DNA of 64,000 bases from an uncultured Clostridia bacterium (GTDB lineage Bacteria; Bacillota; Clostridia; Oscillospirales; Acutalibacteraceae). The stretch is from contig CANQUV010000002.1 in NCBI GenBank assembly GCA_947627135.1, positions 62,001-126,000 on the forward strand, written 5' to 3'. The translations under genes were made by a program, and so were the position numbers. Shown piece after piece: positions 328 through 13,594 of this stretch. Numbering within the stretch: the first letter of the stretch is position 1; every line of letters starts with the position of its first letter. The notes below the pieces were generated by a model that saw only the letters and a program-made list of their open reading frames with translations, did no database searches and was not told the DNA's origin.

Positions 328-356
328 AACAATTACTTTTATTTTTAAAGAAACCT

Positions 357-397
357 AAAAAGGCCGTTCATTCTTATTTTGAATGAACGGCCTTTTT
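357..397. terminator. Bidirectional intrinsic terminator
   Basis: Perfect inverted repeat aaaaaggccgttcattc...gaatgaacggccttttt between convergent genes. Confidence 0.85.
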
Positions 398-409
398 ATT
401 GTTTTTAAA

Positions 410-1501
410 TTATACCTGCGCAATTTTATTAGTTATAATTTCAAAAAGCTTATCATATCTTGTCCACTTTTTAATAAGTTCCAGTAAAACGGATATGCCG
501 TAACAAACAACTGTCAATACAACAAATATAATAATAGAATACTTAAAACTATAAATAAATGTTTTAAAATACATATCGTAAATAAAAACATGGAACATAT
601 ATATATTTCCGCTGTGTTTTCCTAAATTCTCTAATACATTATTTAATACAGGAATATTTGAAATTACCAGGAAGGAAAGTAGGATTACAGGTAAAATAAA
701 CATCCCATCTAATTCTACTGATACTTTAAAAATTGTAACTTTATAATAAAATGTAATTAAAATTAATAAAAGCAAAACTGGAATACAAATTCTGTATAAT
801 TGTATTCTCTTTGGTATTCTTTCGAATACATCAAATTTAGAAAAATACATTCCAATAACAAAAGGAAACAAATACTCTTTTACACAAGCTACATCCGGTA
901 ATATGTATAAAGGAACAAAAATTATAAACAATGTAAAAACAATTGATATTTCAGGAAATTTTTCAAAAATTTTAAAAATAAGAGGAAAAAACATATTTAG
1001 AAAAATAATAAGAGTCATAAACCACCATGAGGAGTTCATTGTCTGAATTATCCCTCCTCCTCCGTTCCAACCGGACATTCCGAAAAAGTCCCGTAAAAAA
1101 TACCAGAAATTGTTTTCGTAAATTGTTGTGGGAGGATAATTAAAAATAAATCCTAACGGAACAAATATTATGTATATAAACCAAAAATTTGATAATAGAT
1201 GCAATACGTGATTTACGGCATATTTAACTTTTTCCTTTATTCCGGTATTACCCCCCCCCATTGAATTTTTATTCAAATAGGAAGTATAGCTTTTATATAA
1301 CCCAAATCCGCTCAAAAAAACAAATATGGCTACACATATTTTGAAAAATACTGAAATGACAGTTTCCGCAGGAACATCATGATACTTAAAAACAGGCGTA
1401 AAGCTATTCATAACCTCAAGTGTCTCAAAAAATAAATGATGCCACAACAACATTAAAACAGCAATTCCCTTTGCAATATTTGTTTGTCTTTTATCAAACA
1501 T
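410..1501 (-). CDS. Acyltransferase family 3 membrane protein (copy 1)
   Basis: 363 aa, MFDKRQTNIAKGIAVLMLLWHHLF..., multi-TM; acyltransferase-3/OafA-like N-terminal motif; contains a G9 tract. Confidence 0.85.
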   Translation of the reverse strand: MFDKRQTNIAKGIAVLMLLWHHLFFETLEVMNSFTPVFKYHDVPAETVISVFFKICVAIFVFLSGFGLYKSYTSYLNKNSMGGGNTGIKEKVKYAVNHVLHLLSNFWFIYIIFVPLGFIFNYPPTTIYENNFWYFLRDFFGMSGWNGGGGIIQTMNSSWWFMTLIIFLNMFFPLIFKIFEKFPEISIVFTLFIIFVPLYILPDVACVKEYLFPFVIGMYFSKFDVFERIPKRIQLYRICIPVLLLLILITFYYKVTIFKVSVELDGMFILPVILLSFLVISNIPVLNNVLENLGKHSGNIYMFHVFIYDMYFKTFIYSFKYSIIIFVVLTVVCYGISVLLELIKKWTRYDKLFEIITNKIAQV

Positions 1502-2765: not shown

Positions 2766-5030
2766 TTATTCATCAATAGAATTTACATCATTAATAATTT
2801 TATCAATTTCGTCGTCTGTTGCAATCGGCTTTTGTGCTTCAATTTTTAAATCTTCCGGCTTTTTAGCATTTTTAAGTGCCTGTGATGATGAAAAAATATC
2901 TTCGTAAACTTTTTGGGCCTGTGAAGTATCTTCGTTTATTTCTTCAATTATATTATCAGTTGAATCTTCATTAATATCTTCAATTTTTTCTTTCATTTCT
3001 TCTTCATTGTTATTACTTGTATCTTCTTGGGATATTGGCAAATTTATTTTTTCAATGCCCTCGTTTAAAATTCTCTCTGTTTCCTCAAAAGCCTCAGCTT
3101 CTGCCTTTTCTGCTTCTTCCTGTGCTTTTCTGCGTCTTTCTTCTGCCTGTTTTTTAAGTTCTGCAAGGTGATTTTCAGGCTTTGTTACCTTTTTTTCACC
3201 CTCTTTAAAGTAAATATCATACCAAACAAGAAAAACATAAATTGTCCAAACCTTGCGGCTGTTATCCTCTTTGTTATTGTAATGCTCATCAAGCCAGTCA
3301 AGTAAAATATCGCAGTTAAAAAATTTCTGGGCAGTTTTGCTTAAAAATTTTTCTCTTACTACCATATAGTAATGCTCATCTCTTAACCATACCCTTGTTG
3401 GAACGGGAAAGCCCAGTTTTTCTTTTTCTGCTGTTTCTATTGGAAGATGTCTTGCTGCTGCTTTACGCATGGCATATTTTGTGTTTTGCTTGTTGCATCT
3501 TAATTTTGTTGGAAGCTTGGACGCAACCTTGAATACCTCTTTATCAAGGAACGGTACTCTTAATTCAAGAGAATTTGCCATACTCATTCTGTCTGCCTTA
3601 AGAAGAATATCACCAACCATCCACATATTTATATCCAAATACTGCATTTTTGTAACATCGTCATATTTTCTGGCTTTGATGTAATGTTTTTTAGTAAGCT
3701 CCTGGGGACGGGTAGCAATAGACGGATCTTTCAAAAGCGCCTGCTTTTCCTCTTTATCATACATAAAGGCGTTACCTATAAAACGCTCTTCAAGAGGATG
3801 GGTCGCTCTTATGAGATAATCTCTGCCTTTAATATCAGGGAGCTTTTTGCAAAGCTTGCAAATTGCTTTTCTGATGCAATAAGGCACGATTGTCTGATAT
3901 ATTTTAAAAACTCTGGGATCGTTATAACAGGTGTATCCGCCAAACAGCTCGTCCGCACCTTCTCCTGAAAGCACAACCTTTACATATTCACTTGCAAGGC
4001 GTGATACAAAGTAAAGAGCAATACAGGAAGGGTCTGCCAAAGGCTGGTCCATATAGTACTGGACTGTTGGAACTGCATCCCAGAATTCTTCACTTGAAAT
4101 CAGGTGAGTATGATGTTCAACACCGATTTTTTTACTTAAATTTTCCGCCCAGCTGATCTCGTTATATTTTTTGCCGAAATCAAAACCGACCGTAAATGTT
4201 TTTTGGTCTGCAAAGTATGTTGAAACATAGCTTGAGTCAACACCGCTTGACAGAAAACAGCCAACCTCTACATCAGCTATTTTATGTGCATTTACTGAAT
4301 TTTCAAAAACCTTTTCAATTTTATCTACCGCTTCTTCTTCTGTAAGAGTTTCGTCAGGCTCAAATTTAGGGTCAAAATAACGGGTCGTTTCAATTTTTCC
4401 GTCTTTATACCAAAGGTAATGTCCCGGAAGAAGGCAGTAAACACCCTCAAAGAATGTTTCAGGCGGTACGCAGTACTGATATGAAAGATAAGTATCCAGG
4501 GCGTTATAGTTAAATTCCTTTTCAAATTCAGGATATTCAAGAATACTTTTTATTTCACTTGCGTAAATAAAGTTACCGTTTACCATAGTGTAGTGCATGG
4601 GCTTGATTCCAAAAAAGTCACGAGCTATGAATACAGACTTATCCACCGTATTGTAAATGGCAAAACCAAACATTCCTCTTAATTTATCAAGGAGTCCCTC
4701 CTGCCATTCTTCAAAGCCGTGAATTAAAACTTCCGAGTCGGTATCCGTGTAGAATTTATGACCCTTTTCAATGAGGATCTTTCTCAAATCCTGATAATTG
4801 TAAATTTCACCGTTAAAAGTAAGAACAAGGGTTTTGTCTTCGTTATAAATAGGCTGACTTCCTGTTAAACCGATATCAATAATACTTAAACGACGAAATC
4901 CCATTGAAATATAATCATCGGTGAAAACACCGTCTGAGTCAGGACCTCTGTGAGTTATTACCTCTGTCATATTTTTTATTGTCTGATCACGGTCAACGAC
5001 CTGACCTGTAAATCCGCAAATACCGCACAT
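2766..5030 (-). CDS. asnB: Asparagine synthase (glutamine-hydrolysing) with long charged C-terminal extension
   Basis: MCGICGFTGQ... class II amidotransferase N-terminus (Cys2 nucleophile) and SGEGADELFGGY synthetase motif. Start moved from 5090 to the MCGICG methionine at 5030. Confidence 0.93.
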   Translation of the reverse strand: MCGICGFTGQVVDRDQTIKNMTEVITHRGPDSDGVFTDDYISMGFRRLSIIDIGLTGSQPIYNEDKTLVLTFNGEIYNYQDLRKILIEKGHKFYTDTDSEVLIHGFEEWQEGLLDKLRGMFGFAIYNTVDKSVFIARDFFGIKPMHYTMVNGNFIYASEIKSILEYPEFEKEFNYNALDTYLSYQYCVPPETFFEGVYCLLPGHYLWYKDGKIETTRYFDPKFEPDETLTEEEAVDKIEKVFENSVNAHKIADVEVGCFLSSGVDSSYVSTYFADQKTFTVGFDFGKKYNEISWAENLSKKIGVEHHTHLISSEEFWDAVPTVQYYMDQPLADPSCIALYFVSRLASEYVKVVLSGEGADELFGGYTCYNDPRVFKIYQTIVPYCIRKAICKLCKKLPDIKGRDYLIRATHPLEERFIGNAFMYDKEEKQALLKDPSIATRPQELTKKHYIKARKYDDVTKMQYLDINMWMVGDILLKADRMSMANSLELRVPFLDKEVFKVASKLPTKLRCNKQNTKYAMRKAAARHLPIETAEKEKLGFPVPTRVWLRDEHYYMVVREKFLSKTAQKFFNCDILLDWLDEHYNNKEDNSRKVWTIYVFLVWYDIYFKEGEKKVTKPENHLAELKKQAEERRRKAQEEAEKAEAEAFEETERILNEGIEKINLPISQEDTSNNNEEEMKEKIEDINEDSTDNIIEEINEDTSQAQKVYEDIFSSSQALKNAKKPEDLKIEAQKPIATDDEIDKIINDVNSIDE

Positions 5031-5140
5031 AATGCAGTCTCCTTTCAAAAGGCAGCCGATGGCTGCACCTATCCGAGCAGATAGCACCATATAATAGCAC
5101 CCTTTTATGCCCGACTGTTTCCAAGCAGTTTTCTAAAAAA
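5031..5140 (-). promoter_or_regulatory. Structured 5' leader of asnB (possible cis-regulatory RNA, class unknown)
   Basis: Minus strand contains consecutive hairpins CTATC-TGCTCG-GATAG, GCAGCC-ATC-GGCTGC and CCTTT-TGA-AAGG just before GGAGACTGCATT-ATG. Confidence 0.4.
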
Positions 5141-10483: not shown

Positions 10484-13400
10484 CTATGATATTTTTGTTA
10501 TTGTACCGTTTTGATAGGTGTATGTACCTGTTTCAAAATAGTAGTTTTGTCCGTATTTGCTATCCCAGTTACCGTTACCATCGTTAAAGCACACATTTGC
10601 ATAAGTTGCGTTTTTTAAGTTTATAGTAAACATGTGGGTATAGCCTGCTTGTTCATCAGTAGGAGTCATTTTAAATCCGGGAACATCTGTCCAATTTCCG
10701 TTACCTATTTGATAATGGATATATGGAGTATTGTATCCTCTATAATAAATTCTTACGAGATTATCAGTGCTTTCTGCTACAATTACTGTTCTTGACGCTG
10801 TTATAGATTCAGTAGTGTAAGGATCTTGTCTTACTCTTACTGTAACAGTATATACGCCTGCCTTTGTAAACTGCCATGCACATCCCACAAGACCCGGTGC
10901 ATACGGATGAGTAACTTGTACATTACCGTTTGAATCAGTTATTTCATACTGACATTCTGTTAATGCTGTGTTATTGTTAAGACTTACCTTCATCCAAATA
11001 TCTTCTCCTGCATTAATTACGCCGTCTGCAGGGGTAATATTAAAAGACTTGATTTTTACTGAATCATCAACAGGTGTAATTACTCCATTCTGGTATGTAT
11101 ATGTACCTGCTTCAAAATAGTAGTTTTGTCCGTTATTGCTGTCCCAGTTACCGTTACCGTCATTAAAGCATACATAAGCGTATGTTGAACTGCCTAAATT
11201 AATAACAGACTTATGAGTATAGCCTTCCATCTCATTTGTAGAATTCATTGCAGTACCGGGAACTTCTGTCCAATTTCCGTTGCCGATCTGATAATGAATA
11301 AACGGATTATTATAACCTTTATAATATATGGTTAATATATTATCAGCATTTGCTTTTACTACATACTGCATCGTTTTTTCAGCATACTGACTTGCATAAT
11401 CCCTTACAACAAGTTTAATATCATAGGTACCGGCTTCTGTCGGAGTCCATGTACCTCCGTGTGTTGAATATACTGTATCTACTAATTCTCCGTTATTATA
11501 TATATAATATATTCCGCCGGATATGCCCAAATATGTAATTTCATTTACTGTTGTATATTTAAAAGTAACTTTTGTTCCTACTACTTGAGGTGATGCGGGA
11601 GTTGCTGTAAAACTGGTAATTCTTAAACCGTCTACTGTAATGGGATTAATTTCTTTATATGCTATTTTTCCCGTTGCATCTTTAACATTTACATAAGGAG
11701 TAAGCACATCACCGTCATGATAATTACTTTGATCAAAAGCGTAACTTGCATTTGTTGAATAATCACTTTCAACCTTGGAACCATCTTGCTTTCTAATACC
11801 AAACTGATATTCATAAGGTTCTGTACCGTTTACGGCAGATGCTCTGAGATAAAGCATTTTTGAACCTAATAACGTATTTCCATCTACATCAGAAATTAAG
11901 CTTGAAACTCTAAATGAATTTACATTAATAGGCGTTATTGTACCGTTATAATAACCATAAGTACCTGCTTCAAAAAAGTAGTTTTGTCCGTTTCTGCTGT
12001 CCCAGTTACCGTTACCGTCATTAAAACATACATATGCATATTTTGAAGTGCCTAAGTTAATTGTATATTTATGTGTATAACCTGTAAATTCATCTGTCGG
12101 CTCCATCGCATAACCCGGAACATTTGTCCAATTTCCGCTGCCTACCTGATAGTGAATATAAGGTGTTGAATAACCCCTGTAATAAATTGTTAATTCATTG
12201 GTTGGATCATCATAATCTGCAACTGACTTTAATGCCTTATAAACATTTAATTTTCCGCCGGTTAAAACTTTACCGTTCAAACTATCTAATGCGTCTGCAT
12301 TATCTAATATTTCTTCTTTTATTTGCTGATTATTCAAATTAGGTTTAAGTGAGGCAACCAAGGCTACTCCACCTGTAACAAAAGGAGTTGCCATTGAAGT
12401 ACCGCTTAAATTTTCATAAGTGTTATTAAGGTAGGTTGATTTTATATTAGAACCGGGAGCTGCTATATCAACAGTAGTTGCTCCGTAATTTGAAAAATTA
12501 GAAAGCTCATTAGCTGATGTAATAGATGCTACTGAAATTATGTTATCTAAGTCATAGTCTGATGGATAGCTCGGAGTAACATCACCATCATAATTATCAT
12601 TTCCGGCAGCACAAATTAATAAACCTTTATAATTTTGGATCGCATAATATACTGAATTTTGATAGTAATAACCTCCGCCGCTGTAATTTATAATATTTAT
12701 ATTATTTTCATTAGCATAAGTAAGCGCTTTAATCTGAGCATCGTATGGAAATCTATTATCTGTATTTGCAATTTGAAGAGGTACGATCTTAACATTTGGT
12801 GCAACTCCGCAAACTCCATTATTTAATGTAGCCGCTACAATTCCTGCAACATGGGTACCATGACCGGCTGTATCGTCATTTGTAATATTATTATCGTTGA
12901 AAAAATCGTATCCTTCTAAAAGATTCGAATTTAATGCAGTATGATTTGCTACACCGGTATCCATAATACCTACTTTTAAATCAGGTGAACCGTATGTATA
13001 ATTTTGCCACGCCAATGGGGCGCTCACTGATTCGATTCCCCATTCGTAACTTTCACTTAAATCTTCATTATTTTCAGTTATTGCTTCGGGCTCATCATAA
13101 TAATTTGGTTCAGCTGAAAGAACTCCCGGTAGGCTTTCAACTTCTTTAATTACATCAAGAACTTCTGTTTTTGATGAAGTATTTAAATCGAGTTTAAGAA
13201 TTTGATGAAAATCTACCGAATTTAAATATTCCTCAATTTCGTTACTGTCACCATGCATTTGTGTTAAGTCTTCAATATCTGACACTTGAGGAATACTGTA
13301 AAAATTTGTTTCAGGCAGATCTGAGGCAAGACTGTCCTGTCTGGTCATAACGACTAAAATTTCATTAGTCGAAAAGTCTGAATCAACATTAATTTCAGAG

Positions 13401-13594
13401 AATATTTCTTTCTCTTCTGTTGTTTTAGCTTTTTCATCATTGTAATAATTAAGTTCGTCACTTGCAATAACCTGTGCACTGTCATCTGGTGTTTGGGTTA
13501 CATCAAAGGCGTACGATTGAAAACATGTCAGAGACGTTGCCATTAAAATCATCGCAAGTGCAGAGGCGCAAGTTTTTTTAATTGTTCTTAACAT
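10484..13594 (-). CDS. Secreted S8 subtilisin-like peptidase with three CBM25-like carbohydrate-binding modules
   Basis: Signal peptide; catalytic motifs IMDTGVANH, GHGTHVAGIVA, GTSMATPFVTGG; three ~90 aa modules [TR]IYY[RK]GY..P[YF]IHYQ.G.GNWT.VPG...GYTH...CFNDGNGNWDS..GQNY[FY]FE.GTY. Confidence 0.88.
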   Translation of the reverse strand: MLRTIKKTCASALAMILMATSLTCFQSYAFDVTQTPDDSAQVIASDELNYYNDEKAKTTEEKEIFSEINVDSDFSTNEILVVMTRQDSLASDLPETNFYSIPQVSDIEDLTQMHGDSNEIEEYLNSVDFHQILKLDLNTSSKTEVLDVIKEVESLPGVLSAEPNYYDEPEAITENNEDLSESYEWGIESVSAPLAWQNYTYGSPDLKVGIMDTGVANHTALNSNLLEGYDFFNDNNITNDDTAGHGTHVAGIVAATLNNGVCGVAPNVKIVPLQIANTDNRFPYDAQIKALTYANENNINIINYSGGGYYYQNSVYYAIQNYKGLLICAAGNDNYDGDVTPSYPSDYDLDNIISVASITSANELSNFSNYGATTVDIAAPGSNIKSTYLNNTYENLSGTSMATPFVTGGVALVASLKPNLNNQQIKEEILDNADALDSLNGKVLTGGKLNVYKALKSVADYDDPTNELTIYYRGYSTPYIHYQVGSGNWTNVPGYAMEPTDEFTGYTHKYTINLGTSKYAYVCFNDGNGNWDSRNGQNYFFEAGTYGYYNGTITPINVNSFRVSSLISDVDGNTLLGSKMLYLRASAVNGTEPYEYQFGIRKQDGSKVESDYSTNASYAFDQSNYHDGDVLTPYVNVKDATGKIAYKEINPITVDGLRITSFTATPASPQVVGTKVTFKYTTVNEITYLGISGGIYYIYNNGELVDTVYSTHGGTWTPTEAGTYDIKLVVRDYASQYAEKTMQYVVKANADNILTIYYKGYNNPFIHYQIGNGNWTEVPGTAMNSTNEMEGYTHKSVINLGSSTYAYVCFNDGNGNWDSNNGQNYYFEAGTYTYQNGVITPVDDSVKIKSFNITPADGVINAGEDIWMKVSLNNNTALTECQYEITDSNGNVQVTHPYAPGLVGCAWQFTKAGVYTVTVRVRQDPYTTESITASRTVIVAESTDNLVRIYYRGYNTPYIHYQIGNGNWTDVPGFKMTPTDEQAGYTHMFTINLKNATYANVCFNDGNGNWDSKYGQNYYFETGTYTYQNGTITKIS

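Follow-up and report, generated by a model that had tools for sequence, protein, structure and literature searches.

Near its start, the window (the whole stretch of 64,000 nucleotides analysed here) carries two tandem genes on the minus strand, each with a match to the Acyl_transf_3 (AT3) family, PF01757: copy 1 (positions 410-1501, 363 aa; E = 1.5e-22) and copy 2 (1665-2732, 355 aa; E = 6.7e-17), the matches covering profile positions 5-324 of 326. Copy 1 contains an uninterrupted run of nine G on its coding strand at positions 1251-1259 (codons 81-84; AAT TCA ATG GGG GGG GGT AAT), seen as nine C on the plus strand, and an identical minus-strand G9 tract lies in copy 2 at 2482-2490. Both genes are in frame, i.e., ON. 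Direct reading of the letters and of the open reading frame at 410-1501 thus bears out what a sequence-only reading had claimed for copy 1, namely an uninterrupted G9 in an open frame. Its expectation that gain or loss of one G would truncate the protein near residue 85 also holds: G8 yields a product of 87 aa and G10 one of 84 aa, instead of 363. The identical tract in copy 2 and the genome-wide repertoire described below go beyond that reading.

The window proteins carry both motifs described for AT3 enzymes, R/K-X10-H in the first transmembrane segment and V-X-X-F-X-X-(I/V/L)-S-G-(F/W/Y) (PMC9558356), as K11-X10-H22 and V57AIFVFLSGF66; the second motif is given with F-F in the same source, and the window proteins have V for the second F. 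The 2 genes encode membrane acyltransferases of this family, which probably decorate surface sugars. Searches of genome contigs, viral contigs and phages returned no relatives of the window protein, and no solved homologous structure was found by sequence at E ≤ 1. An AlphaFold model built from 2 near-identical sequences had a pLDDT of 41 and was used for helix spacing alone.

The 2 copies are 87% identical but diverge in the middle. A 460-bp block at the 5′ side, containing the tract, is the same in both; it is followed by a middle of approximately 60% identity and a near-identical 3′ end, a mosaic pattern that suggests gene conversion or recombination between the tandem copies. Equal tract length in both copies is expected if the block was recently copied, and hence provides no independent evidence of slippage. 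A terminator-like hairpin lies 3′ of copy 1 (356-398, minus strand, also reading on the plus strand), and a remnant of it is found between the copies (1619-1645, unstranded). Directly upstream, an asparagine-synthase (glutamine-hydrolysing) gene (2766-5090, minus strand) is separated by a gap of 33 bp, from which we infer that it is a probable operon partner of the acyltransferases; with only a hairpin remnant between the copies, both would likely be co-transcribed from this gene. The same asparagine-synthase gene occurs in the relative G115, followed by just the first codons of an acyltransferase before the contig ends. Elsewhere in the window, positions 10484-13594 encode a subtilase (PF00082) containing three carbohydrate-binding stretches of the CBM25 type.

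Poly-G runs across the genome

The genome (1.78 Mb, ~33% GC) contains 12 G runs of at least 8 (four G8, six G9 and two G10), 8 of which are of at least 9, and two G/C runs of exactly 7. Extrapolation predicts ~1.0 and 0.15 runs of at least 8 and at least 9, respectively, in the whole genome, giving Poisson probabilities of 8e-10 and 6e-12; under a more conservative first-order model, these are 1e-3 and 2e-6. In 157.7 kb of sampled sequence, G/C runs decay geometrically up to length 6 (2 seen), with none of length 7 and ten of 8-10. As the sampled sequence includes tract-bearing regions, the expectation was fitted on runs of 3-6 only. Runs of A/T in the same 157.7 kb reach 8 at most despite the ~67% AT content, none being of 9 or longer. 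Shuffles within the window alone, a weaker test than the genome-wide one, reached the observed count in 1 of 100 cases. The G9 run is beyond chance.

Coding frames hold 10 of the 12 runs, with G on the sense strand in all 10. Nine of these lie in glycan-like genes, and the tenth in a membrane protein within a polysaccharide cluster; the gene types are glycosyltransferases (GTs), three Acyl_transf_3 genes, a hexapeptide transferase and the membrane protein, which has no Pfam match. Besides the window pair, the tracts are located in 2 Core-2/I-branching GT (PF02485) paralogs (C12:40106, G8, OFF; C12:41434, G10, ON), a GT4 (C12:45311, G9, ON), a GT2 (C12:64142, G10, OFF), a FUT8-like gene with a Pfam match just under the curated cut-off (C12:65132, G8, OFF), a third AT3 gene (C12:66143, G9, ON), the membrane protein (C12:69966, G8, ON), and a hexapeptide transferase-like gene with a match just under the cut-off (C1:10954, G9, ON). 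The frame is thus broken at 3 of the 10 coding tracts. Seven tracts fall within the 38.5-kb polysaccharide cluster C12:37018-75553 (binomial, 1.6e-9), which includes Bac_transf, EpsG, GT, flippase, rmlC/rmlD and Polysacc_synt_2 genes.

The 2 runs of exactly 7 are both found at frame breaks, one in a Gly_transf_sug/Caps_synth gene (G000:C13:41885, L170) and the other, with C on the sense strand, in a GT-like gene without a Pfam match (G000:C11:8125, L169). One run of at least 8 is apparently intergenic (C1:88729). Another, a G8 at the Shine-Dalgarno position of dnaG (G000:C7:11550-11557, L030), reads AATAAGGGGGGGGACAACTATG, and a relative with a 96% identical DnaG has AAAGGAGGACAACTATG; this run was rejected as a coding tract and is regarded as an altered Shine-Dalgarno sequence, in which slippage would change the ribosome-binding-site spacing of an essential gene.

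Loss of mismatch repair was considered as a cause of the tracts and rejected as far as MutS is concerned: this genome has a full-length mutS, and of 100 congeners, 90 have one that scores above the cut-off. With mutS intact, switching rates may be moderate.

Tract lengths and frames in relatives

Comparison of PurL places uncultured, Ruminococcus-like Clostridia nearest to this genome, first among them the "Lapin" MAG G115 (95%; rabbit, judging from the isolate name). The third AT3 gene (C12:66143, G9, ON) has an ortholog in G115, which is 76% identical and has G11 and a broken frame. Beyond the broken tract, 317 codons are open in G115, with a dN/dS of 0.19; this downstream sequence is under purifying selection. 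In remoter orthologs (G094/G117, G021 and G108), the run is absent and the site is read straight through, so that, most simply, the run would have been gained in the lineage of this genome and G115 and later changed in length. The 2 Core-2 GT paralogs, which carry G8 (OFF) and G10 (ON) at the same site, have a pairwise dN/dS of 0.36, and four comparable Core-2 homologs of other species have at most three G at the tract site.

For the window gene, six homologs at 37-46% identity are devoid of the G tract, and no orthologs of the window tracts bearing a tract were found; conservation of the tract across the gene family was accordingly rejected. The lack of the tract in the 46%-identical and remoter homologs points to the window tract being a young feature.

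Among congeners, G021 has runs of 9-11 in genes of the AT3, hexapeptide, epimerase and GT2 types, with ON and OFF frames both represented, and a G9 marks the frame break of an asparagine-synthase-like gene in G113. Runs of G9 were present in 17 of the 100 sampled congener genomes; with 83 lacking them, tracts were rejected as a genus-wide feature. Order-wide, 94 of 149 genomes have a G9, and the runs sampled from three such genomes are mixed; this count is not taken as evidence, since some genomes are GC-richer and some runs lie at contig ends. In another family of the order, 2 similar long, repeat-containing, lipoprotein-like genes (G184:C1:175923 and G184:C11:65990; L196, L199) are frame-broken at a G9 located right after a lipobox-like cysteine (..VFASC) and possibly encode phase-variable surface lipoproteins. 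Also in another family of the order, an acyltransferase-like membrane protein contains an in-frame G12 (G196:C42:2129, L214), and a G9 lies at the frame break between epimerase-like and aldo/keto-reductase-like segments (G196:C42:7938, L214). A DNA cytosine methyltransferase-like gene has a G10 at a frame break (G001:C74:26463, L144).

A candidate poly-G phasome and its alternatives

Phase variation by slippage, proposed for copy 1 in the sequence-only reading, emerges as the best explanation and extends to the genome: 10 coding tracts, of which almost every one lies in a glycan gene and each has its G on the sense strand, the mixture of ON and OFF frames, the G9/ON and G11/OFF orthologs, and the tract-less orthologs elsewhere all support it. 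We thus consider it very likely that the genome carries a multi-locus slipped-strand phasome of surface glycan genes, in which the G9 runs of the window would serve as contingency tracts. Among tracts known to switch, a length of nine G is towards the short end.

Three alternatives were weighed. The best surviving of them, which we nevertheless consider quite improbable, is that the G9 is an incidental string of glycine codons (ATG GGG GGG GGT) forming a flexible loop that plays no part in switching. Consistent with this, the low-confidence model places Met-Gly-Gly-Gly in a loop separating predicted helices, a region whose length and sequence differ among homologs, and some of the other tracts sit on naturally Gly-rich motifs, such as the GGAE of GT4. 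However, homologs lack Gly-Gly-Gly at that position, a glycine loop does not account for 10 coding-frame runs concentrated in glycan genes of an AT-rich genome whose sampled sequence has no G/C run of length 7, and several of the runs break the frame, unlike a glycine loop.

Marginally less credible still is a sequencing or assembly artefact, whereby the true tract lengths would differ and the OFF genes would be consensus errors. Poly-G is error-prone on Illumina, and consensus lengths of poly-G in MAGs can be wrong (PMC9187656); in addition, contigs of some relatives end in poly-G. Yet the runs of this genome lie inside contigs of 75-178 kb, and an error in length would neither create runs nor place them on the sense strand of glycan genes, so that such an artefact would weaken the ON/OFF calls only. 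Finally, that the frame-broken genes are decaying pseudogenes rather than reversibly OFF, as rapid turnover of glycan loci and the G117/G094 ortholog, which has no G run and is broken at another site, might suggest, is the least plausible reading of all, because the breaks fall exactly at the runs, the frames are otherwise open on both sides, and dN/dS is 0.19 downstream of the broken G115 tract and 0.36 for the Core-2 pair.

Under poly-G phase variation, replication slippage would add or remove one G in the window tracts. The AT3 acyltransferase would be made whenever the tract length keeps the reading frame, as G9 does, whereas other lengths would lead to a stop at 84-87 aa; falling soon after the conserved V57..SGF66 segment, this stop would sever the N-terminal K11-X10-H22 and V57..SGF66 motifs from the remaining enzyme. 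Given that poly-G slippage is established elsewhere and that some AT3 enzymes are phase-variable, we read the window pair as 2 acyltransferases that would switch independently of one another. Because their central membrane regions differ, four acylation states would be possible (neither, A, B or both). The pair would belong to a phasome in which about a dozen genes, most of them glycan-related, carry poly-G tracts. We infer that slippage occurs in living populations and is reversible, that the window enzymes transfer an acyl group to a surface glycan, and that the selective agent may be phage, host lectin or antibody. More tentatively, and as a possibility rather than an expectation, a commensal of the Clostridia with intact mutS may run a Campylobacter-like phasome in which the window pair acts as a compound switch, with ends matched by gene conversion, middles bearing specificity, and combinatorial acylation as the outcome.

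If the genome does carry such a poly-G phasome, surface glycans in this gut group would vary within strains, with a bearing on phage and host recognition, and MAG gene calls in such lineages would hide switched-off glycan genes as "pseudogenes."

Comparison with known phase-variable systems

Multi-gene poly-G switching is best known from pathogens, e.g., Campylobacter and Neisseria. Slipped-strand mispairing at an intragenic poly-G has been established for cgtB of C. jejuni (8/9 G) (PMC6437147), and a G9 tract of H. canadensis ranges from 8 to 10 in reads (PMC2823697). The repertoire described here resembles the C. jejuni and Helicobacter phasomes in that G runs lie inside genes, glycan-modifying ones among others, at several loci of one genome, and with both ON and OFF frames. 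By contrast, the host here is an uncultured, Ruminococcus-like member of the gut Clostridia, presumably a commensal, with mutS present, and its tracts in the assembly are mostly of 8-10, as compared with about 8-14 for the contingency runs of Campylobacter and Helicobacter (PMC6437147, PMC2823697).

Among acyltransferases, oafA of H. influenzae is switched by tetranucleotide repeats. Enzymes of the AT3 family acylate sugars of the cell surface, and phase variation by other means is known for some of them, the switching of S. Typhi oafB being epigenetic (PMC9558356). The window pair shares with oafA and oafB the PF01757 family, the same motifs and a predicted role in surface-glycan modification (PMC9558356), but differs from both in its poly-G tracts and in consisting of 2 tandem mosaic copies with one run each.

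The sortase-dependent pili of Bifidobacterium breve, where a G-tract slippage switch was shown by maximum depth sequencing (PMC9187656), provide a further parallel: the host is a Gram-positive gut commensal, as is presumably the case here, and the switch is G-tract slippage, predicted in ours. That species belongs to a different phylum, Actinomycetota, and its tracts are in pilin genes, with 2 loci studied, compared with glycan enzymes and about a dozen loci here. In the literature searched, we found no paper on poly-G phase variation in this lineage of Clostridia, although such absence proves little. The mechanism is already known, and what we regard as new is the host lineage and the mosaic tandem pair.
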